64,000 nucleotides of DNA from positions 310,001-374,000 of the forward strand of contig NZ_JASAOI010000010.1 of the NCBI RefSeq assembly GCF_029953285.1, written 5' to 3'. This DNA comes from Yinghuangia seranimata. GTDB taxonomy: Bacteria > Actinomycetota > Actinomycetes > Streptomycetales > Streptomycetaceae. The translations under genes were made by a program, and so were the position numbers. Positions 46,941 to 57,180 of the stretch are shown piece by piece; position 1 is the first letter of the stretch, and every line of letters starts with the position of its first letter. Below the pieces are notes generated by a model. That model saw only the letters and a list, made by a program, of their open reading frames with translations. It did not search any database and was not told where the DNA came from.

Positions 46941-47000
46941 TCAGGCCTCGGGCCTCAGACCTCAGGCCTCAGACCTCAGGCCTCAGGCCTCAGACCTCAG
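46941..47000. repeat. 7-bp tandem repeat, about 8.5 copies
   Basis: The units TCAGGCC, TCGGGCC, TCAGACC, TCAGGCC, TCAGACC, TCAGGCC, TCAGGCC, TCAGACC and TCAG run without interruption. The last unit includes the stop codon of the DUF35 gene (46997-46999 on the minus strand). As a short-unit array it may vary in copy number between strains and is non-coding otherwise. Confidence 0.9.
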
Positions 47001-47437
47001 TCGCCCGTCGTCGGCGGCGCGAACTGCGGTCGGAAGTAAGGCAGGACGCGTTCGCCGCCCACCCCGTGGTGGTCGACGCGGACGCGCAGGCCCTCGCGTA
47101 CCGCGTCGGCGTCGATGCCGATGAGGTTGGTCAGCATGCGGTAGCCCTCGTCGAGGTCGACGATGGCGACGGCGTAGGGCGTGGTGAACGCGGGGGTGAC
47201 GGGTCTGTGGACGACGGTCCAGCTGTAGACGGTGCCGAGCCCGGCGCTGACCCGCCATTCGAGGCCGCGCGACGTGCAGCCGCGGCATAGGTCGGTCGGC
47301 GTGAAGTTGGCGGTGCCGCAGTCGGTGCACCGCTGGTACCGGAGTTCGCCGTCCGCGCAGCCGTCCCAGAAGGGGGCGCTGAGCGGGGTGACCGGGTTGA
47401 GCGGTATGCCGGTCTGGGGTGCGAGCACGGTTGTCAC
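46997..47437 (-). CDS. zinc-ribbon OB-fold protein (DUF35)
   Basis: A 146-residue DUF35/ChsH2-like protein. The N-terminal zinc ribbon (RYQRCTDCGTANFTPTDLCRGC, read in two parts) has four Cys, and the OB fold (TVYSWTVVHRPVTPAF through YRMLTNL) binds acyl-CoA. Such proteins form complexes with thiolases or hydratases and are needed for their aldolase or thiolase activity, mostly in steroid side-chain degradation. GTG start at 47437 overlaps the thiolase stop by four bases (GTGA), so coupling is tight. A GGAAAGG site precedes it. Confidence 0.92.
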   Translation of the reverse strand: MTTVLAPQTGIPLNPVTPLSAPFWDGCADGELRYQRCTDCGTANFTPTDLCRGCTSRGLEWRVSAGLGTVYSWTVVHRPVTPAFTTPYAVAIVDLDEGYRMLTNLIGIDADAVREGLRVRVDHHGVGGERVLPYFRPQFAPPTTGD

Positions 47438-48609
47438 GGCCTTTCCGTTCCGAACAGCGCGACCTGGCTGAACAGTGCGCCGGAGCCGCCGGCGCTGGCC
47501 AGCGCGACGCGGGCGCCGGGGATCTGGGTCGAGGCGCACGTGCCGCGCACCTGTTGGACGGCCCGGATGGCGCGCTGCAGCATCTGCGGGTTGGACCCCG
47601 CGTGGCTGTACGACAGCAGTCCGCCGTCGGTGGTCACGGGGTGGTTGCCGTCCGGCGCGATGTGGCCGTCGGCGACGAAGGGGCCGCCCTCGCCGGGGGC
47701 GCAGAACCCGAACGCCTCGAGCTGTCTGATGACTTCGAAGGAGAAGGGGTCGTACAGCTCGAGGACGTCGACGTCGGCGCGGCTGAGTCCGGCGGTGCGG
47801 AACGCGCGGTCGGCGGCGCGTTGTCCGACGAGCCCTGCGGAGGGTTGTCCGGCGCGCCGCCCGGCGAGGTCGTAGGCGGGCGGGTGCTGGTAGGCGGGGC
47901 CGAGGCAGTCGGACGCCATGCCGAGCAGGTACACGGGGGCGTGGGGCAGGTCGGGGGCGCGGTCGGCGGCGGTGAGGACGAGGGCGCAGCCGCCTTCGGA
48001 GGTGATGGCGCAGTCGAGCAGCCGGAAGGGGTCGGCGATGGGGCGGGACGCGCGGATGTCGGCGGGGGTGTAGGGGCCGCGGCCGTGGTAGACGGCGTCG
48101 GGGTTGACGTGGCCGTTGTTGCGGATGGTCGCGGCGACGACGGCCAACTGGTCTTCCGTGGTGCCGTACTCGATCATGTGGCGGCGTGCGATGAGGGCGA
48201 ACTCGGCGGCGGTGAACAGGCCCCAGGGGATGACGAACTCGTTCTCGGGGCGGGTCCAGGGGGCGGTGGCGGCGCGTTCGGTGTAGACGCCGGCTTCGCC
48301 GGACGCGACGACGGCGACGTCGCACATGCCGGCGGCGATCGCGGCGGCGGCTTCGGCGATCATGCCGAGGCCGTACTGCGTGCCGCGCCAGGCGGGGCCG
48401 ACCCTCAGGTCGTGGATGAGCCGGGCGGACAGGTCGGCGGCGCTGACGCCGTCGACGTCGTCGAGGGTGAGTCCGGCGTCGGCGAGGGCGCCGTGGACGG
48501 CGTCGACGGTGATGGACAGCGAGGTGTGGCCGGGCAGGGCGCGGGCCTGCGCGGTGTTGTGCACGCCCGCGATCGCGACGCCGCGGTACGGATGGGACCC
48601 GGGGGCCAC
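47434..48609 (-). CDS. thiolase-like protein (lipid-transfer/SCPx type)
   Basis: A 391-residue thiolase-fold protein starting at a GTG after GAGGAGGAG. It belongs to the SCPx/Ltp2-like group: the segment TDGGLLSYSHAGSNPQMLQRA and SEGGCALVLTAADRA are characteristic. Typical catalytic Cys of degradative thiolases near residue 90 is not evident (AAGMCDVAVVASGEAG has a Cys but outside the usual context), consistent with Ltp2-type aldolases that pair with DUF35 proteins. It would cleave a C-C bond in a CoA-linked side chain. First gene of a three-gene operon; a palindrome lies 50 bp upstream. Confidence 0.88.
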   Translation of the reverse strand: MAPGSHPYRGVAIAGVHNTAQARALPGHTSLSITVDAVHGALADAGLTLDDVDGVSAADLSARLIHDLRVGPAWRGTQYGLGMIAEAAAAIAAGMCDVAVVASGEAGVYTERAATAPWTRPENEFVIPWGLFTAAEFALIARRHMIEYGTTEDQLAVVAATIRNNGHVNPDAVYHGRGPYTPADIRASRPIADPFRLLDCAITSEGGCALVLTAADRAPDLPHAPVYLLGMASDCLGPAYQHPPAYDLAGRRAGQPSAGLVGQRAADRAFRTAGLSRADVDVLELYDPFSFEVIRQLEAFGFCAPGEGGPFVADGHIAPDGNHPVTTDGGLLSYSHAGSNPQMLQRAIRAVQQVRGTCASTQIPGARVALASAGGSGALFSQVALFGTERP

Positions 48610-48997
48610 GCCTCTCCTCCTCAGCCGTACCTGCGATGAACGCCCATTGGAAGCGGGACTTGACGAGGAGTCAAGGCCGAAGGTTGTAGAGGCTCACTAT
48701 CGGTTGCGGTCATTCCCGGTCGGTTTGGGCGACAACCGCGGAAATCCCGGACGCGGGTTCGCGGACCTCGACCGGGTCTGTCCGAAGGCTGACGCGGACC
48801 GCCCGCCGGCTGACGGTTGTGAGCGGCGCCAACGACCGGGTCGGGTCGGTCGGTGGACCGTATCGCCGCATTCAATGAGGACTTCTGTGTTAAGGCGGGC
48901 ACATCGGGTGACCCTCATGCGCCAGGATGGATCCTGCAAACGCGTCCGACCGACCGCCATCGGGCGGCGCGTGCACCCTCGTGGGGAAGGTGCCGTG
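48610..48997. other. 388-bp divergent intergenic region
   Basis: This gap separates the thiolase operon (minus) from the paired ATPase operon (plus) and should hold both promoters. Apart from the palindrome at 48659 I see no further clear element, RNA or ORF. Confidence 0.6.
48659..48675. promoter_or_regulatory. CTTGAC-N5-GTCAAG palindrome
   Basis: A perfect six-base inverted repeat with centre GAGGA, 50 bp upstream of the thiolase GTG. TTGACT read on the minus strand could serve as its -35 hexamer, so a bound protein would block it. The same half-sites recur at 61254. Confidence 0.6.
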
Positions 48998-51900
48998 ATG
49001 GCAGAAGCGAACGGTTCGCGGGGATCCGGGACCCCGCTGCCCGCCGAGGTGTCGGCGGACGTGCCGCCGCCTGGCCGCGCGCTGGGAGCGCTTGCCCGGC
49101 GTGCCAATGGCGCGCACGGTGTCGACGTGCTCGGCGCCGGGTCGGGCGCGGCCTCCGGCGGGAACGCCGTCGTAGGCCCGGTCGCGGGGTCCGCTGTGGG
49201 CTCCGCGCTGGAGGGCGCGGGGTCCGGGGTGGCGGCCGGCGTGGATCCCCGCATGGTCAACGGACAGGGGCCGGGTTCCGTCGAGGTGGTCCACTGGGAC
49301 GGCTCCGAACCCCTGCTCACCCAGGCCCCGTTGCTGGAGCGCGACGGCGAGCTCGCGCTGGTCCGCGCCGTCGTCGAGAACCTGTGCCGGCACGCCCGCG
49401 CACGCTCCGGCGGATTCCCCGACGGCCTGCCCGACGGCGGCGGTACCGCGGCCGGGCTCGGCGCGGGTGTCGGGGTCGGCGTCGCGAACCACACCGTCAG
49501 CAAAGGCCGGCACGCTGCGCCGCCCGTCCCGCACCCCACCGGGCCGGTCTCCGGCGAGCTGCTGATCGTCGAGGGCCTGGCGGGCTACGGCAAGACGACC
49601 ATGCTCGACCAGGTCCGCCGGATCGCCGTCGAACACCACTGCACGGTGCTGCACTCGCGCGGCGGCGAGCGCGAACAGGCCCGATCCTTCTCCGTCGTCA
49701 AGCAGCTGTTCTTCAACCTGCTGGCCGGCTGCACCGGCGACGAACGCGCCGCGCTGCTCGGCGACTGGTACGACATCATCGCGCCCGCGCTCGGCCTGTG
49801 CCCGGCCACCGCGGGCTCCACCCCGGACCCGCTCGGTGTCCGCGACGCGCTCGACTGGCTGATGACCGGCCTGACCCGGCACCGCGGCCCGATCGTCATG
49901 GTCGTCGACGACGTGCAGTGGGCGGACGCCGAATCCCTGGAGTGGCTGGTCAACTTCGCCCGCAACCTCGACCAGCTGCCGGTCCTCCTCGTGGTCGGCC
50001 GGCGCAGCGAGGAGTCCACCGACGTCGACGAGTTGCTGCGCGAGATGTCGACGCTCGACCGCACCCGCACCGTCCACCTGGGCACGCTGTCGCCCGCCGC
50101 GGTGACCCGGGTCGTCGAGGTCGGTCTCGGGGTGCGCGGCGACGACGTGTTCAACGCCCGCTGCCATGAAGTCACCGACGGCAGCCCGTTCGTGCTGTGG
50201 GCGATGGTCGGCGAACTGCGCCGGCGCCGGCTCGCGCCGGTCGGGTCGAACGCGTCCGAGCTCGCCGCGATCGCGGCCGCGACGATCGGCCCGAAGCTGG
50301 CCGCGCGTCTGGAGCGCATGGGCGACTGCACGATCGAGGTGGCCCGCGCGATCGCCGTGCTCGGCAGCGACGCGACCCCGGTGCGGGTCGCCGAACTCGC
50401 GGGCGTGGACGTCCCCAAGGTCGGGGTGATAGCCGACCGGCTGCGCGCCGCCGCGATCCTCGTCGACCAGGACACCCTCGGGTTCCTGCACCCGCTCATC
50501 GCGACCGCCGTCTACCAGTGGATCCAGCCCAGCGCCCGCAGTGCGCTGCACGCCCGCGCCGCCCGCCTGCTCGTGCAGGACGGCCGCGACGCGCGGTCGG
50601 CCGCCGTGCACCTTCTGGTCACCGAGCCGTGCGGAGACGCCTGGGTCGTCGAGCAGTTGCGCACCGCGGCCGACCAGGACAAGAGGGCCGGTGCGCCGGA
50701 CTCCGCGCTGCGCTACCTGCAGCGCGCCCTGCGCGAACCGCCGCAGCGCGACGACCGGGCCGCGGTGCGCTACGAGTTGGGCCGCGCGTCGTTCGTCAGC
50801 TCGCCGTCCGACGCGATCATGCACCTGCGCGCGGCGCTGGCCGACGACGCCGCGGACCGGGTGCTGCGCGAGTCGATCGTGCTGCAGCTCGCCCGCGCGC
50901 TCGGCTACACCGACCAGATCCAGGCGGCGGTCGAACTCCTCGACCAGGAGGCGGCCGCCGCGAACGCGTCCAGCACGCGGCTGCGGCTCCAGGTTGAGCA
51001 CTTCCTGTGGGCGGTGTTCTGGGTCGACGACCCAGACTACCACACGCGTTCGCGGCGCCTGAAGAACCTCGTCGTCCGCCTGGAGGGCAACAACCGCACC
51101 GAGCGCTGCCTGCTGGCGCTGCGCGCCTGGTACGGGGTGGTGCGGGGCGACCCGATGGTGCAGGTGCTGGCGAGCGCCGACCAGGCGTGGGGACCGGGCC
51201 TGACGTGGACCGACGAGGACTGGGGCTTCGAGATCCCCAGCCTGCTCGCGCTGACGTACATGTACTGCGACCGCAACGACCGCGCCGAGCAGCTGTTCAC
51301 CGCCGGTATCGCGGAGCTGCGTTCGCACGGCTGGCGCGGCACGCACCTGTCGTACGCGCACTCGATGCGCAGCCTGGTGCGCTACCGGCAGGGCAAGCTG
51401 CTGCTCGCCGAGGAGGACTGCCGGATCGGGCTGCGGCTGGCGTTGCGCCTGGGTCCGCTTGCGCCCGCGCGCTGGTATCCGATCGGCACGCTGATCCAGG
51501 TGCTGCTGGCGCGCGGGCGGGTGCGTGAGGCGGTGCGGCTCGCGGAGGAGCACGAGTTCACCGAGCCGTTCCCGAACGCGGTCGTGTTCCCGGATCCGCG
51601 CGCGGTGAGCGGCGAACTGCGGCTGGCCGCCGGGATGCCCGCGGAGGCGGCGGCGGACCTGGCGGCGGCCGGGGAGAAGCTGGAGGGGCGCGGTGTGGCC
51701 AATCCGGCGTGGTGTCCGTGGCGGGTGAACCTCGCGAAGGCGTTGTCGGCGTACGACCCGGAGACCGCGTACGAGCAGGCGTGCGAGGCGCTGCGCCGCG
51801 CGTACCGGTTCGGCGCGCCGTCCGCGATGGGGCAGGCGTTGCGCGTGACGGGCCGTCTGGAGGGCGGGCAGAAGGGGCTGGCGAAGATCGAGGACGCGCT

Positions 51901-52144
51901 GATGTGGCTCGAACACTCCGACGCGCGCTACGAGTACGCGGTGACGCTGGTCGAGTACGGCATCCTGCTGCGCCGCGAGTTCGGCGACCGGGACGCGGTG
52001 GACCCGCTGTTCGAGGGGCTGACGGTCGCCGTGGAGTGCGGCGCGGACGCGCTCGCCGACGCGGCGCGCGCCGAACTGGTGGACATGGGCGAGCTTCCGC
52101 CCGTGGTGGGGTCGGGTCCCGCGGGCTACGGGCCGATACCGTGA
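48998..52144 (+). CDS. large AAA/STAND-type ATPase regulator without HTH
   Basis: A 1048-residue protein related to LuxR-type LAL regulators. A Gly/Ala-rich N-terminal ~100 residues precedes the ATPase: Walker A GLAGYGKT (residues 193-200) and Walker B IVMVVDDVQWAD; the winged and TPR-like helical repeats follow to the end. It ends LVDMGELPPVVGSGPAGYGPIP with no C-terminal LuxR helix-turn-helix, in contrast to its paralogue downstream. ATG at 48998 follows GGGGAAGG. The stop overlaps the next start (GTGA). Probably works with the downstream protein as a pair. Confidence 0.88.
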   Translation: MAEANGSRGSGTPLPAEVSADVPPPGRALGALARRANGAHGVDVLGAGSGAASGGNAVVGPVAGSAVGSALEGAGSGVAAGVDPRMVNGQGPGSVEVVHWDGSEPLLTQAPLLERDGELALVRAVVENLCRHARARSGGFPDGLPDGGGTAAGLGAGVGVGVANHTVSKGRHAAPPVPHPTGPVSGELLIVEGLAGYGKTTMLDQVRRIAVEHHCTVLHSRGGEREQARSFSVVKQLFFNLLAGCTGDERAALLGDWYDIIAPALGLCPATAGSTPDPLGVRDALDWLMTGLTRHRGPIVMVVDDVQWADAESLEWLVNFARNLDQLPVLLVVGRRSEESTDVDELLREMSTLDRTRTVHLGTLSPAAVTRVVEVGLGVRGDDVFNARCHEVTDGSPFVLWAMVGELRRRRLAPVGSNASELAAIAAATIGPKLAARLERMGDCTIEVARAIAVLGSDATPVRVAELAGVDVPKVGVIADRLRAAAILVDQDTLGFLHPLIATAVYQWIQPSARSALHARAARLLVQDGRDARSAAVHLLVTEPCGDAWVVEQLRTAADQDKRAGAPDSALRYLQRALREPPQRDDRAAVRYELGRASFVSSPSDAIMHLRAALADDAADRVLRESIVLQLARALGYTDQIQAAVELLDQEAAAANASSTRLRLQVEHFLWAVFWVDDPDYHTRSRRLKNLVVRLEGNNRTERCLLALRAWYGVVRGDPMVQVLASADQAWGPGLTWTDEDWGFEIPSLLALTYMYCDRNDRAEQLFTAGIAELRSHGWRGTHLSYAHSMRSLVRYRQGKLLLAEEDCRIGLRLALRLGPLAPARWYPIGTLIQVLLARGRVREAVRLAEEHEFTEPFPNAVVFPDPRAVSGELRLAAGMPAEAAADLAAAGEKLEGRGVANPAWCPWRVNLAKALSAYDPETAYEQACEALRRAYRFGAPSAMGQALRVTGRLEGGQKGLAKIEDALMWLEHSDARYEYAVTLVEYGILLRREFGDRDAVDPLFEGLTVAVECGADALADAARAELVDMGELPPVVGSGPAGYGPIP

Positions 52145-55101
52145 GCGCCGCGGCGGCCGCCGCCCACGATCCGGGGCCCGAGCAGTTGTTCGAGCGGGTG
52201 CGCGAGCTGTCGATGGTGCACACGCTGGTCCGGGGGCTGTCGGGCCCGGTGGGCTCGGACGGCGGCGGGCGCGGCGGGCTGCTGATGTTCGAGGGCGCGG
52301 CGGGGCTCGGCAAGACGTCGCTGGTGGACGCGACGCGGCGGATCGCGGCGACGTACGGCACGACGGTGCTGCACGCCAAGGGCGGCGAGCGCGAGCAGGG
52401 CCGCGCGTTCCACGTGGTGCGGCAGTTGTTCCGGCGGCTGCTGGTGGCGTGCGGCGAGACGGAGCGGCACGACCTGCTGGGCGGCTGGTGGGATTTGGTG
52501 GCTCCGGCGGTGGGCCTGGCGCCGCCCGCGCCGGCGCCGGACGGCGAGGGCGGTGACGGCGCGGCGCCCGATCCGCAGGGGGTGCGGGACGCGCTGGACT
52601 GGCTGATGGCCGGTCTCGGGCAGCGGCGCGGCCGGATGGTGGTGCTGGTCGACGACGCGCACTGGGCGGACCGCGAGTCGCTGACGTGGCTGGAGTCGTT
52701 CGCGCGCACGATCGAGGCGACGCCGGTGCTGATGGTGGTGACGCGCCGTCCGGAGGAGCCGACGCCGAACGCGGACCTGCTCGGCGAGCTGGCGGGGCTG
52801 CCGGGCATCCACCGGCGCGACCTGTCGCCGCTGTCGCCGCCGGCGGTCTCGGCGATGGTGCGGCAGCGGCTGGGGGCGTGCTCGGACGAGGTGTTCTGCC
52901 GTACCTGCCATGCCGCGACCGACGGAAACCCTTATGTGGTGGGCCAGTTGCTGGGCGAGGTGGTGGACCGCGAGCTGAAGCCGACCGCGGCGAACGCCCG
53001 CCACCTGGACACGCTCGCGGCGGCGATCGTCGGCCGCGGCATGATCGCCCGCCTGGAGCGCACCGGCAGCGCCGCGGTGGGGATCGCCCGCGCGGTGGCG
53101 GTGCTCGGCGCCGACGCGACGCTGGGGCGGGCCGCGGCGCTCGCCGGGCTGGACGCCGACGCGGCCGTCGGTCCGGCCGACCGGCTGCGCGCGGTAAGGG
53201 TGTTCGGGTCGGGCGAGCAGCTCGACTTCGCGCACCCGACCATCGCGACCGAGGTGTACCGGCGAATACCGCCGCAGGCCCGCGGCGCGCTGCACGCCCG
53301 CGCCGCGCGTCTGCTCATCGGGGACGGCCACGACGAGGCGCAGGCCGCCGCGCACCTGCTGGCCACCTACCCGTCCGGGGACCCGTGGGTGGTCGACCGG
53401 CTGCGGGCCGCCGCGCGGCAGGACGCGCGCGCGGGTGCCCCCGACGCCGCGTACCGCAACCTGCTGCGGGCTTTGGAGGAGCCGCCGTTCGGGGAGGAGC
53501 GCACGGCGGTGCTGTACGAGCTCGGGCTGACCGCGTTCGTGCACGATCCGCGCGCCGCGATCGACCACCTGTACTCGGCGCTCGCGGGCACGCACCCCGA
53601 ACGGCCGTTCCGGCAGGCCATCGTGCTGCGGCTCGCCAAGGCGCTGGCGCACGACGACCGGATGGCCGAGGCGGTGCGGCTGCTCGACGCGGAGGCCCGC
53701 GCCACGAAGGTCTCGCGCGGCCGGCTGCGGCTGCAGGCGGAGCACTTCCTGTGGGCGCTCTTCTGGGTCGACGACGGCGAGGCGCACGCGCGGGCGCGCC
53801 GGCTGCGGTCGCTCGCGGGGCGGCTGGCGGGCTCCGACACCACCGAGCGCGCGCTGCTGGGCATGCGCGCCTGGTACGGGGTGGTGCGCGGCGACCCGGC
53901 GGTGCAGGTCATCGCGTACGCCGAGCGCGCCATGAACCCTCCGTTGAGCTGGGTCGACGAGGACTGGGGCTTCGAGGTCCCGGTGCTGACCGCGCTCGCG
54001 TTCCTGTACTGCGACCAGCCCGAGCGGGCGGAGGCGTGCTTCCTCGACGGCATCGCCGAGCTGGAGGCGCGCGGCTGGCGCGGCACGCACCTGGCGTTCG
54101 GGCACACGCTGCTGGCGCACATCCGCTACCGGCAGGGGCGGCTCGCGGAGGCGGAGGCGGGCGCCCGCGTCGGGCTGGAGTACGCCGACCGGCTCGGGCC
54201 GGACGCGCCCGCGCGCTGGTACGCGGTCGGCACCCTCATGCAGGTCCTCATGGCGGTCGGGCGGCTGGACGAGGCCCAGGAGCTCGCCGACCGGTACGGC
54301 TACGGCGAACCCTTCCCGCAGGCCGTCGTGTTCCCGGTGCCGCAGGTGGTGTGCGGGGAACTGCACCTGGCGCGGCACGAGTACGCGGCCGCGGTGGAGG
54401 ACCTGACCGCGGCGGGGACGGGGCTGGACGCGCGCGGGTCGACGAACCCGGCGTGGTGCCCGTGGCGGCCGTACCTCGCGCACGCGCTGCTGCCGACGGA
54501 TCCGGCGGCGGCGCGAAGGGTCGCGAACCGGGCCGTGGGACAGGCGTACGTGTTCGGCGCGCCGTCCGCGCTCGGGCAGGCGCTGCGCGCCGCCGGGCAG
54601 GTCATCGGCGGCGCGGAGGGCCTGGCGAAGCTCGGCGAGTCGGTGCGCTGGCTCGCGGACTCGCCGGCCCGGTTCGAACACGCGCTCTCGCTCGTGGAAT
54701 ACGGTGCGGCGCTGCGGCGCGCGAAGCGGATCACGGAGGCGCGGCTGCAGCTCGGCGCGGGTCTGGAGGCGGCGGTGCGGTGCGGGGCCGAGGCGTTGGC
54801 GGCGCGGGCGCGGGCGGAGCTCATCGCGGCCGGCGGGCGGCCGCGGCGCGCGTACCGGACGGGCGTGGAGGCGCTGACCGTGCGCGAACGCCAGACCGCC
54901 GAACTGGTGGTCGGCGGCCTGTCGAACGCGGCGGTGGCCCGGCACCTGGCGGTGCGCGTCGGCACCGTGCAGAAGCACCTGACGGCGGTCTACGCCAAGC
55001 TCGGCACCGACCGGGCGGGGCTGGCCGACTGCCTGGAGGCGGCCGGGTTCACGGCGCCCGGGTCAGCACCGCCCGCGAGTAGAGCACGGGGCGGTAGGTG
55101 A
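52141..55101 (+). CDS. LAL-type LuxR-family regulator with ATPase domain
   Basis: A 986-residue regulator. It begins with the ATPase domain (Walker A GAAGLGKTS at residues 52-60; Walker B VVLVDDAHWAD), continues with TPR-like helices and ends in a LuxR helix-turn-helix (residues about 910-960, EALTVRERQTAELVVGGLSN through VGTVQKHLTAVYAKLG). LAL regulators switch on gene clusters in response to nucleotides and small molecules. It overlaps the stop of the upstream paralogue by four bases and shares blocks such as GVRDALDWLM, AWYGVVRGDP and EDWGFE with it. GTG start. Target genes unknown. Confidence 0.93.
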   Translation: MSAAAAAAHDPGPEQLFERVRELSMVHTLVRGLSGPVGSDGGGRGGLLMFEGAAGLGKTSLVDATRRIAATYGTTVLHAKGGEREQGRAFHVVRQLFRRLLVACGETERHDLLGGWWDLVAPAVGLAPPAPAPDGEGGDGAAPDPQGVRDALDWLMAGLGQRRGRMVVLVDDAHWADRESLTWLESFARTIEATPVLMVVTRRPEEPTPNADLLGELAGLPGIHRRDLSPLSPPAVSAMVRQRLGACSDEVFCRTCHAATDGNPYVVGQLLGEVVDRELKPTAANARHLDTLAAAIVGRGMIARLERTGSAAVGIARAVAVLGADATLGRAAALAGLDADAAVGPADRLRAVRVFGSGEQLDFAHPTIATEVYRRIPPQARGALHARAARLLIGDGHDEAQAAAHLLATYPSGDPWVVDRLRAAARQDARAGAPDAAYRNLLRALEEPPFGEERTAVLYELGLTAFVHDPRAAIDHLYSALAGTHPERPFRQAIVLRLAKALAHDDRMAEAVRLLDAEARATKVSRGRLRLQAEHFLWALFWVDDGEAHARARRLRSLAGRLAGSDTTERALLGMRAWYGVVRGDPAVQVIAYAERAMNPPLSWVDEDWGFEVPVLTALAFLYCDQPERAEACFLDGIAELEARGWRGTHLAFGHTLLAHIRYRQGRLAEAEAGARVGLEYADRLGPDAPARWYAVGTLMQVLMAVGRLDEAQELADRYGYGEPFPQAVVFPVPQVVCGELHLARHEYAAAVEDLTAAGTGLDARGSTNPAWCPWRPYLAHALLPTDPAAARRVANRAVGQAYVFGAPSALGQALRAAGQVIGGAEGLAKLGESVRWLADSPARFEHALSLVEYGAALRRAKRITEARLQLGAGLEAAVRCGAEALAARARAELIAAGGRPRRAYRTGVEALTVRERQTAELVVGGLSNAAVARHLAVRVGTVQKHLTAVYAKLGTDRAGLADCLEAAGFTAPGSAPPASRARGGR

Positions 55102-56181: not shown

Positions 56182-57180
56182 GTGATCGACACGTCTTCCT
56201 CCCCCGCTTCCCCGACCGCCGGAGCCGTCGCGGCCGGCCTGGCCACGCTCGCGGCCGACGGCACCGTGCTGGACACCTGGTACCCGGCCCCCGCGCTCAC
56301 CGACGGCGGCGACAAGGCCGAAACCGTGCGCCTGACCGCCGACGAGGCCGTCGCGGCGCTCGGTGCCGACGTGGCCGCCGGGCTCGGCGCCGACGAGCTG
56401 CGCGGCGTCGAGGTGGTCGCCGTCCGCACCGTGATCGGCTCGCTCGCCGACGCCCCGGTCGACGCCCACGACTCCTACCTGCGGCTGCACCTGCTCAGCC
56501 ACCGCCTGGTCCGCCCGCACGGCGCGAACCTCGACGGCGTGTTCGGGCTGCTGGCCAACGTCGCGTGGACCAACCTCGGACCGGTCCCGGTCGACGGCGT
56601 CGCCGCCGCCCGGCTGCGGGCGCGTGCCGCGCGCGTGCCGTTCGAGGTCGCGGGCGTGGACAAGTTCCCGCGCATGACCGAGTACGTGATCCCGTCGGGC
56701 GTCCGCATCGCCGACACCACCCGGGTCCGCCTCGGCGCGCACCTGGCGTCGGGCACGACGGTCATGCACGAGGGCTTCTGCAACTTCAACGCCGGCACGC
56801 TCGGCGCCTCCATGGTGGAAGGCCGCATCAGCGCGGGCGTCGTGGTCGGCGACCACAGCGACGTCGGCGGCGGCTCCTCGATCATGGGCACCCTGTCGGG
56901 CGGCGGCAAGCAGGTCATCTCCGTCGGCGAACGCTGCCTCCTGGGCGCCAACGCGGGCATCGGCATCTCGCTCGGCGACGACTGCATCGTCGAGGCCGGC
57001 CTCTACGTCACCGCCGGCACCCGCGTCACCCTCCAGGACGGCACCGTCGTCAAGGCCGCCGAACTCTCCGGCCGCGACGGCCTCCTCCTGCGCCGCAACT
57101 CCCAGTCGGGCGCGGTCGAGGGCATCTGGCGCACCGAGTCCTGGGGCTCCCTGAACGCCGACCTGCACAAGAACGACTGA
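56182..57180 (+). CDS. dapD: 2,3,4,5-tetrahydropyridine-2,6-dicarboxylate N-succinyltransferase
   Basis: A 332-residue enzyme of the succinylase branch of lysine and meso-diaminopimelate synthesis. It is the actinobacterial DapD type: helical N-terminal part, then the left-handed beta helix with hexapeptide rungs ([35 protein letters not shown], read in parts; [37 protein letters not shown]). The stretch [13 protein letters not shown] is characteristic. Length is slightly above the usual ~315-320. GTG at 56182 is the first in-frame start close to the domain; its ribosome-binding site (GGCGG) is weak. A G/C island follows. Confidence 0.95.

Follow-up and report, generated by a model that had tools for sequence, protein, structure and literature searches.

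LAL regulators are described as large proteins with an ATP-binding domain that carries a Walker A motif and with a C-terminal HTH; they are found in actinomycete clusters for antibiotics and other secondary metabolites, and the same source calls them poorly studied (PMC3282765). For MalT of E. coli, ATP and inducer are reported to drive an oligomerization that matters for DNA binding; MalY is reported to inhibit MalT by blocking an oligomerization face (PMC10427625). The mycobacterial protein IniR is presented as an AAA ATPase with a sensor resembling MalT domain III and a LuxR-like DNA-binding end (PMC5760070). A census of actinobacterial LuxR proteins covers, in the part of it cited here, the architectures of LuxR-containing sequences, so that members without an HTH fall outside it (PMC3466318).

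The DNA analyzed here, a stretch of 64,000 nucleotides from the 9.8-Mb genome of Yinghuangia seranimata (G000) and called the window below, carries two adjoining genes whose products we designate P1 and P2 (Table 1). A preliminary description of the window had reported two reading frames aligned across their ATPase and TPR parts, the first of them devoid of a LuxR HTH, and both observations were borne out. BLASTP aligned P1 with P2 at 450 identical residues of 836 (54%, 8 gap positions, 796 bits), far beyond chance, and Pfam AAA_16 was found in both proteins (2.5e-15 in P1, 7e-12 in P2), while GerE matched P2 alone (residues 911 to 956, 3.2e-7, 30.3 bits, with the cut-off at 23.5) and had no match in P1. 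The homology stops at the boundary between TPR and HTH, and all that remains of P1 beyond it is a short tail. P2 thus combines all the traits of a LAL regulator, namely, large size, an N-terminal ATP-binding domain with a Walker A motif (GAAGLGKT), and a C-terminal LuxR HTH; P1 has the size and the ATP-binding domain with Walker A (GLAGYGKT) but not the HTH and is a LAL-like protein, not a LAL regulator. The P1 frame runs from an ATG at 48998 to a TGA at 52142-52144 and the P2 frame from a GTG at 52141 to a TGA at 55099-55101. Alternative in-frame starts for P1 exist as far as 672 nt upstream of 48998; the ATG at 48998 is kept in all three Yinghuangia genomes and is preceded by the invariant GGGGAAGG. 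We give almost no credence to the idea that the pair is an assembly or annotation artifact or one split gene, since each gene has its own full ATPase and TPR set and the arrangement is repeated in three genomes, one of which is a single 8.3-Mb contig.

Table 1. Features of the P1/P2 locus (positions in the window)
Feature	Position	Strand	Remark
DUF35/ChsH2-type OB-fold and zinc ribbon protein	46997..47428	-	possible target
Divergent thiolase/lipid-transfer-like protein	47434..48609	-	possible target
Perfect inverted repeat CTTGAC-GAGGA-GTCAAG	48659..48675	.	candidate operator near divergent genes
Conserved P1 leader	48875..48997	+	likely promoter/operator region
P1, HTH-less MalT/LAL-like STAND protein, NOD - arm - TPR sensor	48998..52144	+	1,048 aa
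P1 Walker A (GLAGYGKT)	49574..49597	+	first glycine is serine in the 2 other P1 orthologues
P1 Walker B (VMVVDD)	49895..49912	+	
P1 TPR sensor, residues 653-1035	50954..52102	+	653-1021 match MalT domain III
GTGA stop/start overlap of P1 and P2	52141..52144	+	4 nt; probable translational coupling
P2, LAL-type regulator with P1 homology throughout and C-terminal LuxR HTH	52141..55101	+	986 aa
P2 GerE/LuxR HTH (residues 911-956)	54871..55008	+	missing in P1
dapD	56266..57180	+	syntenic marker common to g4

The pair was found side by side, with P1 lacking the HTH, in all three Yinghuangia genomes, so the check for a conserved pair that the preliminary description had proposed came out positive within the genus. 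The GTGA overlap that it had taken as translational coupling is present in the window genome and Y. soli but not in the third genome, G002, in which the P1 stop is a TAG followed, after 2 nt, by the GTG of P2. Interspecies dS ranged from 0.51 to 0.66, with dN/dS of 0.35 to 0.43 for P1 and 0.25 to 0.27 for P2. Recent lineage-specific decay, the objection raised at the outset, is ruled out, the absence of the HTH being common to all three genomes at a dS of about 0.5 to 0.66.

An AlphaFold2 model of P1 was built on 43 aligned family sequences, one of them P1 itself (mean pLDDT, 83.8; pTM, 0.81; pLDDT below 50 at residues 1 to 108, 143 to 181, and 1038 to 1048). In the model, residues 105 to 611 matched the nucleotide-binding and arm part of MalT (8bob_C; Z, 20.6; 379 residues aligned; rmsd, 4.3) and residues 653 to 1021 matched MalT domain III (1hz4; Z, 23.1; 342 aligned; rmsd, 4.3), and Foldseek ranked 6mfv_A, a TPR-sensor STAND protein, first (E, 7.5e-10). 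Many unrelated TPR proteins match the sensor at similar Z, the top-ranking 8jal_A among them, so the weight rests on the NOD match and on the joint order of the domains. The model thus has what marks a MalT-like STAND protein, a NOD and arm fold with Walker A and B followed by a TPR superhelix sensor, and it retains the modules through which MalT oligomerizes; as predicted, P1 would be a MalT-like protein up to the start of the P2 HTH, missing only the DNA-binding part of MalT. A sequence search against solved structures returned nothing for P1 and only the HTH of NarL for P2 (E, 0.01). The NCBIfam name TOMM_kin_cyc was discarded (43.8 bits, far under its cut-off of 705.75).

None of the three P1 orthologues has lost Walker B or the P-loop core AGxGKT. 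P1 of Y. soli and of G002 carries serine instead of the first glycine of GxxxxGKT; MalT, too, has a serine at this position. The three Yinghuangia genomes were scanned with an HMM of the family HTH in every forward frame of the stretch that begins 240 nt ahead of the P1 stop and extends 700 nt beyond it. No HTH remnant was detected in these forward frames, and the absence of the HTH thereby withstood the suspicion that a remnant might lie in another frame. P1 does evolve faster than P2 overall, as a functionless copy that had lost its HTH by chance and was decaying would, but its frame is open, its motifs are kept, it ends at a domain boundary, its dN/dS is well under 1 across three genomes, and in the comparison with G002 constraint is strongest over its last 145 codons. 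Decay is therefore very unlikely, and with its core motifs, its fold, purifying selection, and no HTH remnant in the forward frames, P1 is no wreck.

Selection was not uniform along the protein. The dN/dS values of P1 and P2 were 0.26 versus 0.24 in the sensor, 0.40 versus 0.23 in the NBD, and 0.52 versus 0.19 in the arm, with intervals that are too narrow because species pairs that share branches were treated as independent. Equal constraint on the sensor together with a looser NBD and arm would fit a sensor-bearing partner with reduced demands on switching. The looseness is not general in the family: the median ratio of NBD and arm to sensor was 0.97 in 16 HTH-less pairs and 0.98 in 11 HTH-bearing pairs (Mann-Whitney p, 0.71), against 1.67 and 1.81 for the P1 pairs, and one P2 pair was also high (1.46). 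Such a profile, like the replaced P-loop glycine, could also be read as that of a pure decoy or buffer, which would bind the signal or block one oligomerization face of P2 without ATP-driven switching and so set a threshold; the P-loop core and Walker B kept in every orthologue speak against it, as does an NBD and arm that are relaxed but not neutral, and we regard this as improbable.

Upstream of P1, about 130 nt reaching into the first codons (48875-49020) are far more conserved among the three genomes than the N-terminal coding part of P1, and a run of 29 nt that stops 2 nt short of the ATG does not vary at all. One 26-nt piece of this leader occurs once in the genome. A structured RNA leader was considered and rejected: folding equaled that of shuffled sequences (z, 0.06), and 2 of 52 pairs showed changes on both sides, in an alignment of only 3 sequences. 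Rfam returned for the leader a miRNA match alone, far under threshold. As the leader folds no better than shuffles, a DNA operator or promoter is more likely than an RNA element. The CTTGAC-N5-GTCAAG repeat, close to the start of the divergent thiolase and DUF35 genes, is kept with at least one change in the two other Yinghuangia genomes. A family III CoA-transferase gene lies beyond these two genes on the divergent side of P1; the stretch of G002 that was examined held no relative of the thiolase.

The related genus g4 (genomes of 11 to 12 Mb) bears on the origin of the pair. All four g4 genomes had a single close member, in each case without an HTH, and the sole second match at an E of ≤1e-60, among the candidates scored, was a protein of 31% identity in G020. 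At the C-terminal end, the g4 gene (L045, L047, L068, and L069) has no HTH but a tail peculiar to it, with a shared motif, ETWPF. At the two g4 loci available with flanks, it lies between a DUF35 gene, whose product is a relative of the window's DUF35 protein, and dapD, without P2. Both g4 loci and Yinghuangia share the order of a gene that we take to be chorismate-mutase-like, a small protein gene, the DUF35 gene, the HTH-less gene, dapD, and an acyl-CoA synthetase gene. Since g4 has just one gene of the family at this syntenic locus, and that one without an HTH, either P2 was lost there or the duplication came later. In the tree with outgroups, g4 was placed outside P1, P2, and the rest (support 98) on a long branch, a position that is unsure because of the long-branch warning. 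P1 and P2 were sisters with support of 65/58 in the tree without outgroups, and this grouping was not rejected in another tree (AU p, 0.425); without outgroups, the AU p was 0.355 for P1 with g4, 0.356 for P2 with the other Streptomycetaceae rows, and 0.056 for both P2 with g4 and P1 with the others. Of the origin suggested earlier, duplication followed by loss of one HTH, the paralogy of the two is supported; a duplication within the genus is consistent with the data, and the AU test leaves P2 with others and P1 with g4 standing beside it.

We surveyed 159 genomes, namely, 81 of the own genus and its relatives and 81 of genus g9 (3 are in both sets), scoring the best 9 or 10 candidates per genome in nearly all of them. 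A homologue was present in at least 41 of the 81 own and related genomes (E, ≤1e-60) and in at least 72 of the 81 g9 genomes (E, ≤1e-80). Among the matches listed, judged by eye and with single-gene pieces excluded, neighboring pairs occurred in the three Yinghuangia genomes only. A plasmid search yielded three Streptomyces relatives at 39 to 41% identity.

HTH-less members were frequent. A 58-row tree, in which 30 rows had an HTH and 28 had none, required at least 9 changes of HTH state, 8 of them forced by well-supported branches, and a larger tree (77 labeled of 86 rows) required at least 8, of which 7 were forced. Labels were assigned from filled HTH alignment columns, and the g4 rows, partly filled by an unrelated tail, were set to "none"; the HTH HMM scan agreed with this label for L158 and L159, wider cuts of two g4 genomes. 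Since the counts of changes do not depend on the root, we infer loss of the HTH from its presence in 8 of 9 outgroup rows. One well-supported clade comprised 20 labeled rows, all HTH-less. For 49 genes whose main frame ended without an HTH, the three forward frames were scanned over the same span around the gene end (240 nt ahead of it, 700 nt beyond it): 45 had no HTH (best E, 0.22), and in the other 4 (L059, L071, L072, and L081), all interrupted genes, an HTH was found within this span. HTH-less members are thus a common class in this Streptomycetaceae family, and the loss looks stable and recurring and not like damage. An apparent recent loss was seen within one other well-supported clade, in which the HTH of L155 is weak (HMM score, 46.6), that of L157 is weaker still (37.0), and L143 gave no hit. 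Single stops or apparent frameshifts interrupted L059, L064, L067, L046, L013, L071, L072, L078, L080, and L081, mostly HTH-bearing homologues from other genomes, and sequencing errors may be responsible.

The preliminary description had suggested that the HTH-less copy could be a partner that tunes the regulator, and the survey weakened the notion that such a copy is there because it requires an HTH-bearing partner. Members were labeled by the end point of their match to P2, which left 3 of 93 places unlabeled. By these labels, 17 of the 81 g9 genomes held both kinds, 19 only HTH-bearing members, 35 only HTH-less members, and 10 neither or unclassified ones. These counts overturned an early impression that genomes with two members nearly all hold one of each, and co-occurrence was dropped as evidence of partnership: genomes with both kinds were not in excess, and the tendency was toward fewer (odds ratio, 0.26; Fisher p, 0.0055, which takes genomes as unrelated and leaves kinship uncorrected). 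HTH-less relatives are commonly alone, and loss of the HTH therefore does not by itself imply a partner; with 35 g9 genomes lacking an HTH-bearing member and g4 lacking P2, P1 need not depend on P2. It is quite conceivable that P1 acts alone or with another protein, such as another regulator, as a signal-dependent STAND platform working by protein contacts, its position beside P2 reflecting duplication only. The old and lasting HTH-less clades agree with this, as do the single g4 gene with its own tail and the flanks of the 42 HTH-less loci gathered (see below), in which this family's HTH model found no separate HTH gene. Left unexplained in that case is the adjacency of P1 and P2, overlapping or 2 nt apart, in all three Yinghuangia genomes. 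Stand-alone members and the g4 gene show that an HTH-less protein can last with no HTH-bearing relative present, so that independent action is almost as probable as modulation of P2. Each genome has many first-look candidates, so that LAL-type proteins of other families are still possible partners.

The neighborhoods came from 83 loci of the family, gathered nonrandomly: 38 HTH-bearing (the three of Yinghuangia included), 42 HTH-less (including the frame-broken L075 and L078), and 3 with interrupted genes, which the script had counted as HTH-less. The only two matches to a separate HTH in flanks came from L059 and L081, two loci at which the LAL gene is interrupted. The flanks of 21 of the 83 loci contained a relative of at least one of five proteins: the thiolase and the DUF35 protein from the window and three of these kinds from L149. 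A divergent terpene cyclase gene lay within about 2.5 kb, as counted by eye, at 19 of 38 HTH-bearing loci (for example, L012 6526-7545, L149 9676-10740, and L061 2651-3691), 0 of 42 HTH-less loci, and 2 of 3 interrupted loci. All five cyclases checked were PF19086, and two passed the cut-off for isoafricanol synthase. On the tree, the association amounted to 16 of 34 HTH-bearing versus 0 of 43 HTH-less rows; it cannot be called significant, since the 7 independent well-supported pairs, about 2 pointing the same way and 0 the opposite way, cannot reach 0.05, and kinship may explain it. As a pattern of gene order, it suggests that HTH-bearing members may regulate the adjoining gene. The HTH-less clade of L136, L137, L140, L142, L144, L145, L066, and L078 adjoins a catabolic gene group; the CMD/hydrolase gene beside L136 was checked by Pfam, and the rest of the group is presumably of the protocatechuate (pca) type.

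For the Yinghuangia pair itself, the best reading, which we put forward tentatively, is that P1 is a coupled modulator of P2, acting through mixed STAND oligomers or a shared signal. P2 is the complete LAL regulator, and P1 is the same sensor platform minus the DNA-binding domain. The adjacent and probably coupled frames, presumably read from one message, suggest that both proteins are made at a linked ratio. With MalT-like modules, adjacent frames, and no DNA-binding end, P1 could enter mixed rings with P2 through its oligomerization module and sensor or compete for the same signal, and it would thereby change either the number of DNA-binding domains displayed or the signal level at which P2 acts. 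Probable targets would be the divergent DUF35 and thiolase genes and the pair's own leader. A broader proposal, possible but rather doubtful, is that the family has repeatedly shed the HTH to give lasting HTH-less STAND platforms that act by protein contact, the Yinghuangia pair forming mixed rings in which the operon fixes the share of DNA-binding subunits. Because its two members differ in exactly one domain, the natural pair lends itself to asking directly whether a STAND regulator is tuned by subunits that cannot bind DNA. HTH-less members being common and recurrent, searches for LAL-type proteins that require an HTH miss a large and apparently functional part of the family. A literature search of partial texts, with most subscription journals outside it, found neither HTH-less LAL relatives nor such a pair among the matches listed, which is weak evidence for the novelty of the pair.

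How, then, does the pair compare with known proteins? The stand-alone HTH-less members (for example, L052, L055, L085, and L136) are the same ATPase-TPR protein as P1, with 41 to 47% identity to it and an end at the HTH boundary; unlike P1, they have no tandem HTH-bearing paralogue. IniR resembles P2 in architecture, the only level at which the two were compared, and the cited text describes it as a single protein that carries a DNA-binding end of its own (PMC5760070). P1 shares with MalT the NOD, arm, and TPR sensor folds (8bob and 1hz4, by the model), but MalT has a DNA-binding domain and P1 has none, and the MalT inhibitor MalY is, in the account cited, an unrelated protein and not an HTH-less paralogue (PMC10427625). 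Finally, P2 is like the LAL regulators SCO0877 and SCO7173 of S. coelicolor in size, N-terminal ATP-binding domain with Walker A, and LuxR HTH, whereas P1 is without the HTH that belongs to their definition and stands in tandem with P2.
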